Part shown: positions 6,543-13,920 of the stretch, piece after piece
How the letters are laid out: every line of letters starts with the position of its first letter
Numbering within the stretch: the stretch's first letter is position 1
DNA from: Bradyrhizobium cosmicum
GTDB taxonomy: Bacteria > Pseudomonadota > Alphaproteobacteria > Rhizobiales > Xanthobacteraceae
Reading direction: 5' to 3'
NCBI RefSeq assembly: GCF_007290395.2
Contig: NZ_CP041656.2
Location: 6,729,501 to 6,793,500 of the forward strand
DNA: 64,000 bases
The notes under the pieces: model-generated
Databases searched by the model: none
The model's input: only the letters and a program-made list of their open reading frames with translations
What the model was told of the DNA's origin: nothing
Position numbers and translations under genes: made by a program

Positions 6543-6627
6543 GCCCCTGTGGCGGAACTGGTAGACGCGCTCGACTCAAAATCGAGTTCCGCAAGGAGTG
6601 CTGGTTCGATTCCGGCCAGGGGCACCA
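6543..6627 (+). tRNA. tRNA-Leu (anticodon CAA)
   Basis: An 85-base cloverleaf with encoded CCA. The acceptor arm GCCCCTG (6543-6549) pairs with CAGGGGC (6617-6623), followed by ACCA. The anticodon stem CTCGA/TCGAG holds the loop CTCAAAA with CAA at positions 34-36, reading UUG. A class-II variable arm follows, and the T arm contains GGTTCGATTCC. The last 16 bases (6612-6627) recur exactly at 13420-13435, marking it as an integration site. Confidence 0.95.
6612..6627 (+). repeat. attL-like 16-bp repeat (3' end of tRNA-Leu)
   Basis: CCGGCCAGGGGCACCA, the 3' end of the tRNA, is repeated exactly at 13420-13435. Direct repeats of a tRNA 3' end are the normal trace of tyrosine-recombinase integration. 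Confidence 0.75.
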
Positions 6628-7027
6628 GCCAAGAATTAAGCGTCTGATTTCTCTTACATAGTTATTGATTTAGTCCCACCCGACGCTTCGTGGGACACGC
6701 TTTTGTTCACGCTTTCACGTCGCGTGGCTGGATCAAATACAAGTATTTAATTTGTCTCCAAGAAGGGCTCCTCGCGAGTTTTAATATTAACAACGACATG
6801 CTTGGCTGCGACCGTTAAATGCGATCGATACAGCGCTCCCTAATCGATACAGCGCTTCCCTGCGAGTAAGTGGGAGCTCATGTCGACGTCGCCCCCGGAC
6901 TAATTAGCGGCCGCGGTTAACTAGGCTCCGAGGGAGTTATCAAGCCCGGCTGAGAACCGTGTAACTTCCAAGCCCAATCCCGCGGAAGATAAATAGACCT
7001 TAAATCTCGAATACTTAGGATTTAGAG
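6628..7027. other. gene-free left flank of the islet with a small tandem repeat
   Basis: About 400 bases of AT-richer sequence without a convincing gene. Two imperfect tandem copies of an 18-19 base unit (beginning ATCGATACAGCGCT) occupy 6824-6861. It probably holds the promoter for the HAD-UbiA gene. A degraded integrase could once have been here, but none can be read. Confidence 0.5.
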
Positions 7028-8491
7028 ATGTCCCGTATTTCGATGCTTTCATCTGACGACGTGACAGGCGTTCCTGGTAGACCTCTGGTCGTCGATCTGG
7101 ACGGTACACTAGTGCGGTCGGATCTTCTTATTGAAACTGCTTTTTTTGAACTCGCGCGGGATCCGCTGTCATTGTTTGCTATCTGCAGAACTTTGATGCG
7201 AGGCAAAGCGGCTCTTAAGCACCGCTTAGCGGAATCGGCAGAACTTGATCCTTCGGCTCTTCCCTACGACGAAATTGTGTTGGCCCGACTACGTCAGGCA
7301 ACGCTCGAAGGACGACCGGTCTACCTTGCGTCCGCAAGCAATCAACTTCTAGTTGCAGCGGTTGCTGATCACTTGGGAATGTTTTCAGGATGGTTCGCCT
7401 CGGATGAGAAGATAAACTTGACCGGGGCCGCGAAAGCGGAACGCCTCGTGACGGAGTTTAAGGAAGGAGGGTTTGACTATATCGGAAATGATCTTGCCGA
7501 TTTGCCTATTTGGGCCAAGGCTGGAAGAGCGATCGTCATCAGAGCTTCGAGTCCGGTGAAGCGCGCCCTTGCACAACATACGACAATAACAGAAGTTGAA
7601 TATTTGCCGCACGAACGGCCAGGCTGGCGTACGTGGTTAAAGCTGTTTCGCGTGCACCAGTATGCCAAGAATGCCTTGATCTTCGTTCCCTTCTTTCTAG
7701 CCCATCAGTTTTCTTTGCAATCTACGGCAGATGTCTTCCTTGCCGCCATCGCTTTTTCGCTCTGCGCATCGAGTGTTTACATCTTAAACGATCTCGCTGA
7801 TCTGCAGGCCGACCGACGGCATCCTACAAAGCGGAAGCGGCCGCTTGCGAGTGGTACGATATCTGTACTTGATGGCTTTGCTGCGATGCCGGCGCTATTC
7901 ACGATCTCCGTGCTGATAGCAACGATGGTTTCACTAAACTTTCTGGCTGTGATGCTTGGCTATTTTGCGCTGACCGTAGCTTACTCTTTCGTTTTGAAAA
8001 GAAAGATGCTTATCGACGTCATCGTATTGGCTATGCTCTACGTCGTTCGGCTCGTGGCAGGTGCGATCGCGGCCCAAGTAGTATTCTCCGAATGGCTCTT
8101 AGCCTTTTCAATGTTCTTCTTTATGGCATTGGCATTGATCAAGCGATACGTGGAACTCGCCGTGCGCGTCGACTCGGGATTGCCCGAGCCAGAAAATCGC
8201 AATTATAAGCTTAAGGATTTAGAAATTGTAGCGGGGCTTGCGGCCGCGGCGGGATTCAACGCTGTCACGGTATTTGCTCTCTATATATCGTCCGACACAG
8301 TACACTCACTATACCATCGTCCCCAGCTACTATGGTTAATCTGTCCGATATTGCTGTACTGGTTCAGCCGGGCGCTCATGATGGCCCACAGGCGGCATAT
8401 GGAGGACGATCCGATTGCTTTTGCACTGAGGGACAAGAATAGCATCATAGCCGGAGCCATTACTGCGTTGCTCATATTGGCCGCAATCTGA
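7028..8491 (+). CDS. HAD-UbiA fusion: prenyl-phosphate transferase (decaprenyl-phosphate phosphoribose synthase-like)
   Basis: A 487-residue two-domain protein. Residues about 20-200 form a HAD-type phosphatase domain with nucleophile motif DLDGTLVRSD and a later GNDLADLP acidic motif. Residues about 205-487 form a UbiA integral-membrane prenyltransferase with NDLADLQADRRHPTKRKRPLASG, i.e. the first Asp-rich motif NDxxDxxxD. This architecture is known for enzymes joining PRPP to decaprenyl phosphate, the first step to decaprenyl-phosphoryl-arabinose or ribose; the HAD part would remove the 5-phosphate. The adjoining gtrA overlaps by one base (TGATG). DprE1/DprE2 epimerase genes are absent from the window, so the pathway would need them elsewhere. 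Confidence 0.8.
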   Translation: MSRISMLSSDDVTGVPGRPLVVDLDGTLVRSDLLIETAFFELARDPLSLFAICRTLMRGKAALKHRLAESAELDPSALPYDEIVLARLRQATLEGRPVYLASASNQLLVAAVADHLGMFSGWFASDEKINLTGAAKAERLVTEFKEGGFDYIGNDLADLPIWAKAGRAIVIRASSPVKRALAQHTTITEVEYLPHERPGWRTWLKLFRVHQYAKNALIFVPFFLAHQFSLQSTADVFLAAIAFSLCASSVYILNDLADLQADRRHPTKRKRPLASGTISVLDGFAAMPALFTISVLIATMVSLNFLAVMLGYFALTVAYSFVLKRKMLIDVIVLAMLYVVRLVAGAIAAQVVFSEWLLAFSMFFFMALALIKRYVELAVRVDSGLPEPENRNYKLKDLEIVAGLAAAAGFNAVTVFALYISSDTVHSLYHRPQLLWLICPILLYWFSRALMMAHRRHMEDDPIAFALRDKNSIIAGAITALLILAAI

Positions 8492-8884
8492 TGGGTCTTG
8501 CCTTCCGGTACATTGTGTTCGCCATCGCGTCCACGCTGGCGAACCTTTTGCTCCAGGAGTGTGTTTTTCATATTTCGCCGATCATGCCTCTCGCTACATC
8601 AATGGCGGCAGGGACTGGCATAGGCTTTGTGATCAAGTATGTGCTTGATAAATACTGGATATTTCAAGACGAGTCGGCCGGCCATACCGAGGAAATCAAA
8701 AAAGATCATTCTCTACGGAGCTTTTAGTGTCGCAACCACGATAGTGTTTTGGGCAACCGAGATTATCTTCTGGCAGGTTTGGCAGTCGCCTGGCGCGAAA
8801 TATGGCGGGGCTATCGCTGGATTGACGCTCGGCTACACCGCAAAATACTTTCTTGACCGAGCTCTCGTATTCAACGGACGGTAG
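8491..8884 (+). pseudogene. gtrA-family flippase gene split by a frameshift in an A6 run
   Basis: GtrA-type proteins (about 120-130 residues, four helices) carry lipid-linked sugars across the membrane. Here the first half (MGLAFRYIVF ... KYVLDKYWIF) is in the frame starting at 8491 and ends early at 8727. The second half (ILYGAFSVATT ... KYFLDRALVF) continues one frame over, to 8884. Both halves end in the family's (N/K)YxLxxxxxF motif, so together they make a full protein. The shift point is a run of six A's at 8698-8703; one A fewer restores a single frame. It may be a real pseudogene, a sequencing error, or read through by slippage. Confidence 0.7.
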
Positions 8885-8924
8885 CAACGATGGAGCCCAC
8901 GGGTTGGGGACGTTTTCCGCGCCA

Positions 8925-10337
8925 TTAGACAGAAGTGCGTCCCCCCAACTTTCGCGGCTCAATTTTCCTTACACTTCCGAATGCCGTCTCATTGCTGAAC
9001 CAACCGTAGGCTGCCAAAAGGGCCAAGAGGGGTTCTACACCCGCGCGGAGATTCCATCTCACTAGGCCTGCAACAAAACCCGACGCCGCGGTTGTGGCTA
9101 CAACTATCAAGGCGACCCAAACCCAAGACGGTGTCCTATAGTTGGCCTTTAAGTTAGATAGAACAGTCTTACAAACGCCCAAAATGACCACGGCATGAAT
9201 CGCAGTCCAGGTAACAAATAGAGCTACGAGCGCGAGATTCCGCCTCAACAACTCCGCGATTACGCCAAAGACGCCCGCCTCGTCCCTAATTCTCAGCCAA
9301 GAAAAACCATCGGGGGTTTCGCCGAGGCCAAGGTAATAACCAAAAAGATGGTTGGCGCCTGGATTCAGGATTAAATTGAATGCGTCCGTGTACACCGAGT
9401 TGAAGGTGGCTAAGGGATGACCGGCTGCCAAGGCCAGAAACGCTGAAGGTCCCATTCGGCCAGTCGTGTCCAGCGGTAGTCCCAATATACGATCAGCGCG
9501 TAGTGCCAAATTTGTCGAGAGATCCGCATTGGATGCACCCAAGCCAAAATCACCAACGAACAACAATCTCAAGGTCATCCAGGAAATTGGGAACATGGCG
9601 TAAGCTAGAACAGTGGCACCTAGTATGGTTTTCCGGTCTGAGAATCGAGCAATCGAAAGATAAGCAGCTAATGCCAGCGGAACTAACAGACCTTGGGGCC
9701 GAATTGAAGATGCCAAACCGAAACTAGCAAAGCCTATGTAGATAAGGACTAGGAAATCTCGTTTAGAAGCGTCCTTCACAGCCTGGCATATCGCAAATGT
9801 TCCAATTGTGAGAAGCAGAGTGAACCATGTCTCGGTCACTAGAAGGTGGGGATTTAAAAGAGCACCAGGCATTACGAGCACGAAAAAGCCTGTCGCCACT
9901 GCTACAGTTGCGCTTCCGGTCAATCGGACGGCGGCGAGGAAGGTAGTAACAAGAATGATAAACTGAAGTGCGATTTGAAAACCGATTAGCAAATAGGGGC
10001 CGCCAATCGAATAGAGGATCGCGTGCTGTAGGAAATCGCCGGGCACACCCGAATTGAAAATTATACCTTCGAGTGAGTGCCGACTGGCTGCGAAGAGTTC
10101 GTTGAGTTTGGCAAGGCGGTCACTTGCGCGATCTCCGCGAATTACGGCGGCTGGGTCCGTTACATCAAACAAAAATAAGCCAGTATGGATGACGAAAAAA
10201 AGAATGACGATGAGAGCAAACCAGAGGCGAAGGCTGGCCGATAGATTTCTCAAACTATCCTCGCTGAACAACTTGGGGTTCGTAAGCTGGTGCCGGTCGG
10301 AGTTTGATCGGCCGGTTGTCCTTCGCGAACGCTCCAA
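8925..10337 (-). CDS. polytopic GT-C-like membrane protein (putative glycosyltransferase)
   Basis: A 470-residue protein with about 10-12 hydrophobic segments. After a long first loop (about residues 60-110) come repeated helices including VMPGALLNPHLLVTETWFTLL and a loop with SIRPQGLLVP. A T/SETxF...RPQG pattern in a polytopic protein resembles GT-C (PMT/ArnT-like) glycosyltransferases that use lipid-linked sugars, but I see no decisive catalytic motif. The frame begins at a TTG at 10337; the true start may lie inside the first 35 residues. It is convergent with gtrA inside the islet and could use the sugar-lipid made by the HAD-UbiA enzyme. Confidence 0.6.
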   Translation of the reverse strand: MERSRRTTGRSNSDRHQLTNPKLFSEDSLRNLSASLRLWFALIVILFFVIHTGLFLFDVTDPAAVIRGDRASDRLAKLNELFAASRHSLEGIIFNSGVPGDFLQHAILYSIGGPYLLIGFQIALQFIILVTTFLAAVRLTGSATVAVATGFFVLVMPGALLNPHLLVTETWFTLLLTIGTFAICQAVKDASKRDFLVLIYIGFASFGLASSIRPQGLLVPLALAAYLSIARFSDRKTILGATVLAYAMFPISWMTLRLLFVGDFGLGASNADLSTNLALRADRILGLPLDTTGRMGPSAFLALAAGHPLATFNSVYTDAFNLILNPGANHLFGYYLGLGETPDGFSWLRIRDEAGVFGVIAELLRRNLALVALFVTWTAIHAVVILGVCKTVLSNLKANYRTPSWVWVALIVVATTAASGFVAGLVRWNLRAGVEPLLALLAAYGWFSNETAFGSVRKIEPRKLGGRTSV

Positions 10338-11738
10338 TCAGTATCGGCTGCTCGCCGCCCAAGTACCAATTTCGAGCGCGGCACGGCGAGCCTGTTGAAC
10401 CGAGTTACGACCCTTCTGCCGCGTCCGCCTGTTGTTGTAGGAAAGCAGTTCCTGCCTCAGCTGCCGCCGCTCGCTGCGAGCTTCAAAAGGGCAGACCTAA
10501 TGTCCATCAGATTTCTTCCTGAAAGAATAAATGGTACCTCTGGTTCAATTGAGACGTCAAGCCGATGAAACCGAATCTTACAGTCGTGAAGCTCGCTGGC
10601 TGCTTACTATGCAGGGACAGCGTTAGCCGCTCGATTCCGGATCATCCGCGGTAGCAACGCCCAAAACCGGCCACTATCGTTCTGACTGGACCGCAAGGAG
10701 ACCGGGCAGCACCACTCTGCTTAAGAACAAACCGAAATTAAAACGGGTCCAGCGTTCTCTCTAAGGGACTGCGCTGTTTATCATTGAGAAGCCTGCAAAA
10801 GGGAATGGGGACAATCTATCGAGTCCATCCTGCCAATTCCAGGCGAGCCCCGGCACGAGGATGCACCAGCTTCTGCGACTCCAGCCGAACACCAGACGAC
10901 CGCGGATGACGCCAAGAGTAGACCCATCACTTCGATGCCAAAGCCTGCCGGATAGAAGACAGCTAAGCTCAGCAGGCACGGCTACCGTCCCAACCACTAG
11001 GCCCCCTCAGGCGACACAAACGACGTGGAAGGGACAAAGAACCACGAAAACAGCGATGGGTCGTCGCGCAGCGATCCTCGCCTGGCAGTCTTTGCGACCG
11101 TGGCACGGCTGCAGCCCCGTCATGCTTGATAAAAGTCCAGGGGCGACCTTTGCGAGCAAGCTGGCATTGCGCTCGTGTCTTAACGGACCTTGTAGCGGCC
11201 CTCAACCTTAGCTTACGCCTGCCCTGCGCCTGATCTCGGCGCCGATTGTCGTCGTCCTTGCGAGAGTGGCCGAGAGAGTCCTCGAGACTCGCAGATCGCC
11301 GGCGGATCAGGGGCGCCCCAAGCGTCCAATTGCAATAGCAGCTCCACTCCTGGCCGATCTCTGATCCCGTCGTCTGAACGTACCACGCGAACTGAAAGGA
11401 CGACGGCACGTTCGTTCAGGGCGTTGCTAATTGCTTTTTACCAAATCTGCATTTCGCGCGATGCGTCCAGATGCAGAAGAAGTCAATCCATCGGCGTTAT
11501 GCTGCAAAGAACCGAAATCGGGCTATGCTTCTGCTGAAAAATTATTCCCACCGCGATCGGCCAAAAGTCAGCCCGAGGTTGGTAGATTTTCCGAGATCTG
11601 GACTATCACGTAGTCAAGAAATCCGGAATTGAAAGCGAGGCCGATCGCGGCGATGCAGAATGCAAACTTAACGAAAGATCCCTTAGGACCGACGCTACTT
11701 TATCCGACTTTATAAGGACGGCACCCGAAGGGCAGACC
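10338..11738. other. 1.4 kb without a credible gene inside the islet
   Basis: Several open frames of 60-146 codons exist on both strands but overlap each other, are rich in Arg, Ser and Cys, and lack domains, hydrophobic segments or ribosome sites. I see no inverted repeats typical of an insertion sequence. It probably contains degraded coding sequence and the downstream region of the acyltransferase gene. Confidence 0.5.
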
Positions 11739-12818
11739 CTAAGCCGTAGCCTTTTTGGCTCGTAAGCCTCTAATGTTTCGGTCGAGAATCCTGCGTATGT
11801 TCTTGAGCATCGGGTTCTCAATCCAGCGGCTGATTAAGAGCCCGAGGAGATTGGAAGCCACGAGCGCAACGAGCACGAATACCAGACCGGTTGCGTACGA
11901 CGATACGGGCATCACTTTAGCCAACGCCGCAACGACGAATACATTAAAAATATACGTGCTGTACGATGCGTCGCCAAACTTTTCCGCCCATTTGGCGAAG
12001 ACGCCGCCCTCGCCGCCCTCACCGCTGCAAAGCATCACCACGCATGCGGCTGGAACCCACATCAGCAAATCAGTGGGGAAGGAGATATCATCAAGGCTTC
12101 TGATGCAAGCGTATGCGACACACATCAACCCAAACATGAAACATGCAACAATAAACGGATAAGGAATTCGCGGATTCGTCGCAAATAAACCGATGAAGAT
12201 ACCGATGACGAAGAGCAAAACGATATGTTCCGTGAAGAACAGCGCCGCCGTATGTGCAGGATTTCCAGGTCCGACAAAAAGCAAGTGCGACCCAACCAAG
12301 ATCACGAACACCGCGGTGATGAAGGAAACGCCTGCCCTCAACGGTAGCAACATTGCGACCGCGAAGACGGCATAGAAGAACATCTCATAGTTCAGCGTCC
12401 ATCCGACGCTCAATATTGGCTTCATGACACCGTGCGTCGCGTCAAAATACGGGACGAAAGCAAGGGATAGTCCGAGGTCGATAAACCGCCAATCTTTTGC
12501 AACGAGCGCCACAAAGATAAAGGCGCAAAAGGTCCCAATCCAATAGATCGGCAGGATACGCGTCAAGCGCCTCAGAAAGAATTCCTTGGCGTTCCCGAGG
12601 GTCCCAAAGCGGTCTCGATTCGTCCTGATCATAATAAAACCGCTGACGATGAAGAACACGACAACACCGAGATTACCGATGTTGTATCTGACGTCATCGA
12701 AGTACGAGGGCAGAACCCCGTTTCTAACTAATGGCCCGAGAGCGTGATCCAGAACAACCGCCGAGGCGGCTATTCCTCTCAACGCCTGAATATGGTGAAT
12801 TCGAACAGAAATTGACAA
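11739..12818 (-). CDS. acyltransferase family 3 (OafA-type O-acyltransferase)
   Basis: A 359-residue inner-membrane protein with about 10 helices, of the AT3 family that O-acetylates or acylates surface sugars. Family marks in order: HIQALRGIAASAVVLDHA (the R-H catalytic region), GVVVFFIVSGFIM, FFLRRLTRILPIYWI, and VGWTLNYEMFFY. There is no C-terminal SGNH domain. No ATG opens the frame: a TTG at 12818 is preceded by GAGG nine bases upstream and is preferred; another TTG at 12833 is possible. It is a plausible modifier of LPS O-antigen or capsule and fits the polysaccharide theme of the islet. Confidence 0.85.
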   Translation of the reverse strand: MSISVRIHHIQALRGIAASAVVLDHALGPLVRNGVLPSYFDDVRYNIGNLGVVVFFIVSGFIMIRTNRDRFGTLGNAKEFFLRRLTRILPIYWIGTFCAFIFVALVAKDWRFIDLGLSLAFVPYFDATHGVMKPILSVGWTLNYEMFFYAVFAVAMLLPLRAGVSFITAVFVILVGSHLLFVGPGNPAHTAALFFTEHIVLLFVIGIFIGLFATNPRIPYPFIVACFMFGLMCVAYACIRSLDDISFPTDLLMWVPAACVVMLCSGEGGEGGVFAKWAEKFGDASYSTYIFNVFVVAALAKVMPVSSYATGLVFVLVALVASNLLGLLISRWIENPMLKNIRRILDRNIRGLRAKKATA

Positions 12819-13419
12819 TGATAAAATCCTCAATAACCGAGGAAGTTAACAATCGGTATGAGACGCCGCAAGCTTGAGTGGCAATTAACTTGCTTATCTG
12901 TTGAATTTTTGAACCTGATTATAATCCCAAACTGGGCACGATGGTCGGACAATTCGCCTACTACTACGCCATTCTGACTGCGGTCCTGAAGTTTTCATGC
13001 GCTAACGTACGTCGGCGGTTGCGGTCGGTGAGGAGGGCATTTGTCGACAGAATTGATGTACAGAACATCTGTGAGCAGAGCGGCAATCCCGGGTTTTATT
13101 GTTAGCGATGCCGTTCAATTTCGGTCCGCTCAGCATGCGCTGGTGGCGGGGTTGCCCGCCGAACACGTTCAGAAGAAGCTTCTCGCGACCTCTTCTTCCC
13201 GAGCTGAAGGACTTTTCTCAGTACTCCCGGTCGATCATCCGCCTATCTCGCATTCGTCCGCTTCAATCTTGGCCAACCCGCGCTAGTTCGCCGCGTTGCG
13301 ATCAAGAGTCGAGGAAGGCTATGGCCGGAGCTATTCGTCGAACTCGCGGATACGGTGATATGGAAATCTCGAAAGTCCTACATTCCGCTAAGCGATTAAT
13401 ATGTTTCACTTATTGTTGC
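12819..13419. other. gene-free right part of the islet
   Basis: Six hundred bases without a convincing gene, AT-rich near 12840-12930, presumably holding the acyltransferase promoter. Short plus-strand frames at 13041-13590 are Arg/Ser-rich and cross the islet border, so they are unlikely to be genes. Confidence 0.5.
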
Positions 13420-13435
13420 CCGGCCAGGGGCACCA
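13420..13435 (+). repeat. attR-like 16-bp copy of the tRNA-Leu 3' end
   Basis: An exact copy of 6612-6627. Homology stops at once on both sides (the tRNA continues GCC, here CGC), as expected for a crossover core. Normal high-GC sequence begins just after. Confidence 0.75.
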
Positions 13436-13515
13436 CGCTTCGCCCTTCGGGCTTCGCGTGGCGCGGCCACGCCGAAGCCGGAAAGGCGAAGCGTGTCCGG
13501 CGAAGCCTCCTGGCG
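13436..13515. repeat. palindrome-rich intergenic element next to attR
   Basis: Short inverted and direct units built from GCTTCGCC / GGCGAAGC recur, with a CGCGTGGC...GCCACGCC pair. It looks like the Bradyrhizobium-type extragenic palindromic repeats. Confidence 0.5.
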
Positions 13516-13617: not shown

Positions 13618-13920
13618 ATGAACGACCTGCACGCGTGGCTTTCAGAGCAGCACCACGGCCTGCGCACCTTCCGGACATTTCAGCAGAAGCTCGAGGCGCT
13701 CGGCCGGGACGATCCCGCCCAGCGCGGCCTGTGCCGCCTGCTCAGCGGGCTCGTCGGCAGCTATGTCGAGGCGTTTGACGAAGCCCCGCTGCCGGTCGAG
13801 GTCGCCGACGGCGCCTATCACCGCCTGCTGACGCTGGTCGAGAGCCTGGATCCACACGCCGACGCCCACCGCCGGCTCGCCGACATCAACCGTGTCGCGG
13901 CGAGCGAGCTCTGGCGCTGA
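13618..13920 (+). CDS. conserved hypothetical small acidic protein
   Basis: A 100-residue soluble protein, mostly helical by composition, starting MNDLHAWLSEQHHGL after a GAGG site (13610-13613). No signal peptide, membrane segment or metal-binding motif is visible. Codon use is normal for the chromosome, unlike the islet to its left, so it belongs to the resident genome. Function is not recognised. Confidence 0.65.
   Translation: MNDLHAWLSEQHHGLRTFRTFQQKLEALGRDDPAQRGLCRLLSGLVGSYVEAFDEAPLPVEVADGAYHRLLTLVESLDPHADAHRRLADINRVAASELWR

Follow-up and report, generated by a model that had tools for sequence, protein, structure and literature searches.

An integrase-deleted genomic islet with surface-polysaccharide genes at tRNA-Leu(CAA) of Bradyrhizobium cosmicum

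Main finding

The stretch of Bradyrhizobium cosmicum DNA analysed here (64,000 nucleotides; the window) contains a real, integrase-deleted tRNA genomic islet of a known, ordinary kind. The islet at tRNA-Leu(CAA) was very probably inserted, as an element with a piece of an exopolysaccharide cluster, by a tyrosine integrase like that of an island in B. iriomotense SZCCT0346 (genome G083), after which the integrase was lost and the resolvase, gtrA and a neighbouring gene decayed. The parent type of the islet, the integrase stub and the signs of decay are new relative to the preliminary description of the locus. The features are as follows.

6543-6627, + strand: tRNA-Leu(CAA), intact, the insertion target (ARAGORN; Rfam RF00005 covers 6543-6624)
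6612-6627, + strand: attL core, 16-bp repeat in the tRNA 3' end
6667-6741, no strand: left att arm; its alignment to the G083 island has 76 columns, with 64 identical and 1 gap
6707-6742, - strand: 3' remnant (stub) of a tyrosine integrase gene, comprising the final 11 codons and the stop (DNA match to G083)
7028-8491, + strand: HAD-UbiA fusion, 487 aa, DPPR-synthase-like prenyltransferase (NDLADLQAD and DLDGT motifs)
8491-8884, + strand: gtrA-family pseudogene with a frameshift near 8700 (the intact G042 homologue is PF04138 / NF037976)
8925-10337, - strand: membrane protein, 470 aa, predicted GT-C glycosyltransferase fold
11078-11236, - strand: apparent serine recombinase (resolvase) relic with stops (E 3e-5 and 2e-6)
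11522-11675, - strand: relic of a 439-462-aa gene found downstream in the G171 and G042 cassette
11739-12833, - strand: acyltransferase 3 family protein, 364 aa, ExoZ/OafA-like (PF01757; homologues)
13360-13419, no strand: right att arm, 46 of 60 positions identical to the right end of the G083 island
13420-13435, + strand: attR core, which repeats the 16 bp of the tRNA 3' end exactly and precedes native downstream sequence

Target tRNA, direct repeat and base composition

The core-to-core length of the islet was 6,808 bp. The 16-mer of the tRNA 3' end occurred in two exact copies within the 64-kb window, so that the perfect copy reported earlier at 13420-13435 is exact and has the tRNA's own as its only counterpart; three further sites resembled it with 3 mismatches each (5 matches in total). 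On the + strand of the window 11 recurring 16-mers were detected, corresponding to 6 independent repeats, and the att repeat was the sole pair less than 7 kb apart. The similarity to most of the listed relatives stopped at 6627 or within a few bases of it.

The G+C content was 0.50-0.57 in the islet compared with 0.60-0.70 outside (1-kb steps, bases 1-30000), falling from about 0.66 to 0.51 between the att copies. The third-position G+C values of the three intact islet genes, 0.52, 0.55 and 0.63, were lower than those of the nearest flank ORFs (dsbB, 13618-13920 and AbrB), 0.86, 0.87 and 0.91. Both results bear out the AT-richer content described previously. Six more flank ORFs, some of which overlap on opposite strands, had third-position values of 0.63-0.88.

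Empty and occupied sites in relatives

To locate the site, 195 Bradyrhizobium genomes (source genome included) were searched with the dsbB-tRNA junction and the right flank. A right-flank match of any quality was present in 132 other genomes, and the sites were counted in the 58 relatives that matched best (E up to 5e-98). The right flank was 44-247 bp from the tRNA junction, i.e. the site was empty, in 40 of the 58, and other DNA of 6.5-189 kb separated the tRNA and the right flank in 12; in the remaining 6 the flanks were on different contigs (5) or opposite strands (1). Among the best 29 relatives whose loci were compared, the right flank was at most 1.5 kb from the tRNA in 21 and not in 8. 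With G182, which is 98% identical across the dsbB-tRNA junction query, the tRNA joins the window's right flank directly with a single repeat copy and 91% identity. The site was also empty in USDA110, and about 31 kb were present in USDA6 (G122).

According to the preliminary description, an empty site with one repeat copy or different cargo at the same tRNA would support an insertion, and identical, syntenic content across relatives would speak against it. The single-copy empty site was found, e.g. in G182, as was the different cargo, in 12 of the 58 relatives. No synteny of the islet DNA was seen elsewhere: parts of the islet were matched in 17 of 194 other genomes, with partial coverage and 64-84% identity only. 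The locus combines the features of a tRNA-associated genomic island: tRNA 3'-end insertion with direct repeats, deviant composition and an empty site. An integrase of its own, which such islands often but not necessarily have, is reduced to a stub.

Given the 12 other occupied sites among the 58 relatives, tRNA-Leu(CAA) is a recurrent docking site in Bradyrhizobium. Islands at tRNA genes have been published already, and so has a candidate island at trnL-CAA of B. japonicum USDA6, for which the genome paper gives the interval 1,473-1,503 kb (PMC3927601). The USDA6 island shares the insertion tRNA gene with the islet. In contrast to the islet, it is about 30 kb long and, by that paper's account of the region, has no terminal duplication (PMC3927601). 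No sequence common to the USDA6 island and the islet was detected. The tRNA of G002 and the native flank that belongs downstream of it are far apart and on opposite strands (G002:C1:9190836 and 985606), which suggests a chromosomal rearrangement through the tRNA-Leu(CAA) site.

Islet ends and the B. iriomotense island

The first 393 bp of the islet gave a single match among 194 other genomes, to G083 (84% over 76 columns, E 1.8e-15). The right end (13330-13440) matched the same genome with 83% identity (E 4.2e-17; 261 other genomes), and the only other right-end match among the 261 was 21 bp of G252 including the repeat, the 21-bp junction common to empty sites being left out of these results. 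As at most three candidate places per genome were scored in both searches, weaker end matches elsewhere may have been missed.

The two matching stretches of G083 form the termini of a 21-kb island located at the same tRNA (contig NZ_JAFCJZ010000012.1). An intact 367-aa tyrosine integrase (PF00589) is located at its left end, the 3' end facing tRNA-Leu(CAA). The left arm of the islet holds AGTCCCAC at 6672-6679 and the inverted GTGGGACA at 6690-6697, both of which are shared with the G083 island near the left core at matching offsets; the right arm holds AGTCCTAC at 13374-13381, and AGTCC(C/T)AC is common to both elements near the right core. AGTCCCAC, GTGGGACA and AGTCC(C/T)AC are candidate integrase arm sites.

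The G083 island thus resembles the islet in its tRNA, 16-bp core and homologous ends, and probably in the resolvase, an intact homologue of the islet relic being situated in the island. It differs in its size of 21 kb, its intact integrase and its cargo, which includes an ApeA-like gene. Besides the ends and the resolvase, the island gave no match to the islet, and therefore the ends and the resolvase relic are the grounds for inferring common descent. Attachment DNA of about 75 bp on one side and 60 bp on the other links an orphan islet to a named parent type. Among the 7 ORFs of the G083 island that were scanned, with integrase and resolvase present, no relaxase was recognised. The island also encodes ApeA-like (PF18862 and PF18739) and PDDEXK-family proteins (L064:3039-4424 and L064:9487-10581), which look like phage-defence genes.

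Integrase stub and mobility

The similarity of the islet to G083 ends after the last 11 integrase codons and the stop. The stub peptide LYLIQPRDVKA corresponds to MHLIEPRDAKA in the same position and frame as the end of the G083 integrase. Since the match at the protein level alone is insignificant (E 0.55 within the islet), the case for the stub rests on the DNA identity, the position and frame, and the matching right end. Judged from these, the tail end of a lost integrase seems to be still visible in the islet. The earlier statement that no integrase is visible holds for the whole gene, the islet having the 11-codon stub only, but has to be amended for the 3' stub.

The source genome had 6 PF00589 matches and the window none. 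A resident integrase able to act on the site was looked for and not recognised: all 6 proteins are encoded outside the window, and no relative of the G083 integrase was found in the source genome at E 1e-30. The islet, previously called immobile, is accordingly likely to be so in this strain; however, both att cores are intact, and hence a helper integrase might still excise it.

Relatives of the G083 integrase with 31-56% identity were present in 55 of 194 other genomes. A tRNA gene of one of several kinds lay within about 1.5 kb of the relative in 20 of the 30 loci compared, of which only G083 has tRNA-Leu(CAA) and two have tRNA-Leu(GAG). In a second set (29 of 80 loci from named genomes) a tRNA gene was present somewhere in 23 of the 29 loci; tRNA-Leu(CAA) adjoined the integrase in two records, that of G083 itself and L147, which is a MAG under the name Enhydrobacter aerosaccus.

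Cargo genes and related clusters

The HAD-UbiA protein was 75% and 72% identical to its homologues in B. centrolobii (G042) and Bradyrhizobium sp. CIAT3101 (G171), respectively. It passed the curated cut-off of the PRK08238-type model NF006088 over its full length (641 vs 351 bits, residues 18-487) and remained below those of the decaprenyl-phosphate phosphoribosyltransferase equivalogs NF008976-8 (149, 140 and 112 vs 234, 207 and 474 bits); it is similar to these equivalogs and is not filed under them. The frameshift of gtrA could be a sequencing error. The GT-C model of the 470-aa membrane protein resulted in Foldseek TM-scores of 0.34-0.46 (normalised by model; best seven rows), and the protein as modelled is of a predicted GT-C fold. 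Its protein cluster (98%) has 17 members and may include the source genome itself. At E 1e-60 the acyltransferase was found in 2 of 265 Bradyrhizobium genomes, namely the source genome and G004 (44% identity). The acyltransferase of Bradyrhizobium sp. A5 is 95% identical, and the corresponding 95%-identical protein cluster has 20 member sequences, which may include the source genome itself.

The claim that the islet carries only lipid-linked sugar and envelope genes does not give its full content: gtrA has a frameshift, and apparent resolvase and polysaccharide-cluster gene relics are present in 10340-11740. The glycosyltransferase and acyltransferase genes are thus separated by about 1.4 kb that lack an intact gene. 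The most likely role of the three intact genes would be to make a lipid-linked pentose and to transfer or acylate a surface-polysaccharide residue. The cargo may still alter LPS or capsule, as proposed in the preliminary description; surface polysaccharides are important to rhizobia living on plants. Due to the saturation of synonymous sites, the dN/dS of the cargo was uninformative (dS 3.2 or not computable in four window comparisons). Promoter-like sites numbered 5 compared with 4.5 in shuffles, and terminator-like sites 5 compared with 8.2.

In G042 and G171 the HAD-UbiA, gtrA and GT-C genes have the order and strands of the islet. The shared arrangement also covers the gene left as the 11522-11675 relic, and it adjoins Wzz-kinase and Wzx genes. 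In contrast to the islet, these genes are part of a larger Wzz/Wzx cluster, which lies on another contig than, or far from, the genomes' own tRNA-Leu(CAA), whereas the islet is at that tRNA. Neither G042 nor G171 has a relative of the acyltransferase at E 1e-60, and the methyltransferase of the related clusters was not found in the islet. The 439-aa protein of the G171 cassette (L083:12189-13505) had no Pfam, NCBIfam or PDB sequence match. A second UbiA-family gene of the source genome is located near an SDR and a FAD_binding_4 protein (L114, G000:C1:123000-142000), and the same 19 kb contain a sigma-54 gene and an LptA/LptD_N-type gene.

Other small inserts at the same tRNA

Inserts of 6.5 kb (G146) and 4.5 kb (G013, outside the 58 relatives) were found at tRNA-Leu(CAA), with att repeats, one exact and one with a mismatch. 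The two genomes had 42 PF00589 matches, none of them on the insert-bearing contigs; integrase-less inserts therefore recur at this tRNA, which has been used three times by inserts below 7 kb without an integrase gene. A search for an integrase stub in the two inserts gave best E values of 0.003 and 0.02, away from the tRNA end, and was unconvincing. Since the insert ends were alike by eye and of another type than those of the islet, tRNA-Leu(CAA) seems to serve at least two kinds of element.

Origin of the islet and alternatives

The shared ends, the integrase tail and the probable resolvase relic indicate that the islet is a relative of the G083 island that has decayed in part and lost its integrase by deletion. 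A G083-type tyrosine integrase would have recombined a circular element into the tRNA 3' end via the 16-bp core flanked by arm sites, and, judging from the anatomy, the tRNA would have been restored on the left side by the integration, with a 16-bp copy remaining on the right. The element, or its ancestor, would have carried the piece of exopolysaccharide cluster. From the relics it may be read that the integrase was later reduced to its last 11 codons, the resolvase decayed, and gtrA and the neighbouring gene broke, which would have left the HAD-UbiA enzyme, the GT-C glycosyltransferase and the acyltransferase intact. The islet is then a clean example of an island that loses its integrase and keeps both attachment ends.

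That the repeat arose by chance beside a native AT-rich region, with no insertion, is extremely improbable. Six independent 16-mers do recur in the G+C-rich window, but the empty sites in relatives refute this reading, and the composition step and the shared element ends also contradict it. It is very unlikely, too, that the islet never had its own integrase and was captured in trans as a bare cassette or formed by fusion of two pieces at the hotspot. The G146 and G013 inserts without a PF00589 match are in favour of such an origin, as is the cargo, which apart from the resolvase relic has no match to the B. iriomotense cargo; against it, an integrase 3' end at the expected end and an internal resolvase relic indicate that the element once carried these genes. 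Phage and plasmid origins were rejected: the islet had no match in 50,697 phage records, and of the 36 matching plasmid records, the 10 matches listed all hit the tRNA end of the query only.

Compatible with the insertion, although doubtful, is the possibility that the cargo is kept by selection for a surface-polysaccharide effect and is not a dying remnant. The three intact genes, the catalytic motifs in HAD-UbiA and the acyltransferase and glycosyltransferase protein clusters on record (which may include the source genome) are in favour of it; the frameshifted gtrA, the 1.4 kb lacking an intact gene and the missing methyltransferase speak against it. As for its class, the integrase-deleted islet resembles the cis-mobilizable elements (CIMEs) as outlined in PMC5704250, in which integration and transfer genes are lost and attL and attR are kept: its integrase is reduced to the stub, no relaxase or conjugation family was recognised among the three intact ORFs, and attL and attR are retained. 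As a class defined also by descent from an ICE or IME and by mobilization in cis or by a helper integrase, CIMEs may include the islet. It is rather unlikely that the islet is a dormant cis-mobilizable element, although with both cores and the paired AGTCCCAC arm sites intact an incoming G083-type island could excise and re-integrate it. If so, integrase-less cassettes would circulate through a shared tRNA-Leu(CAA) dock in Bradyrhizobium.
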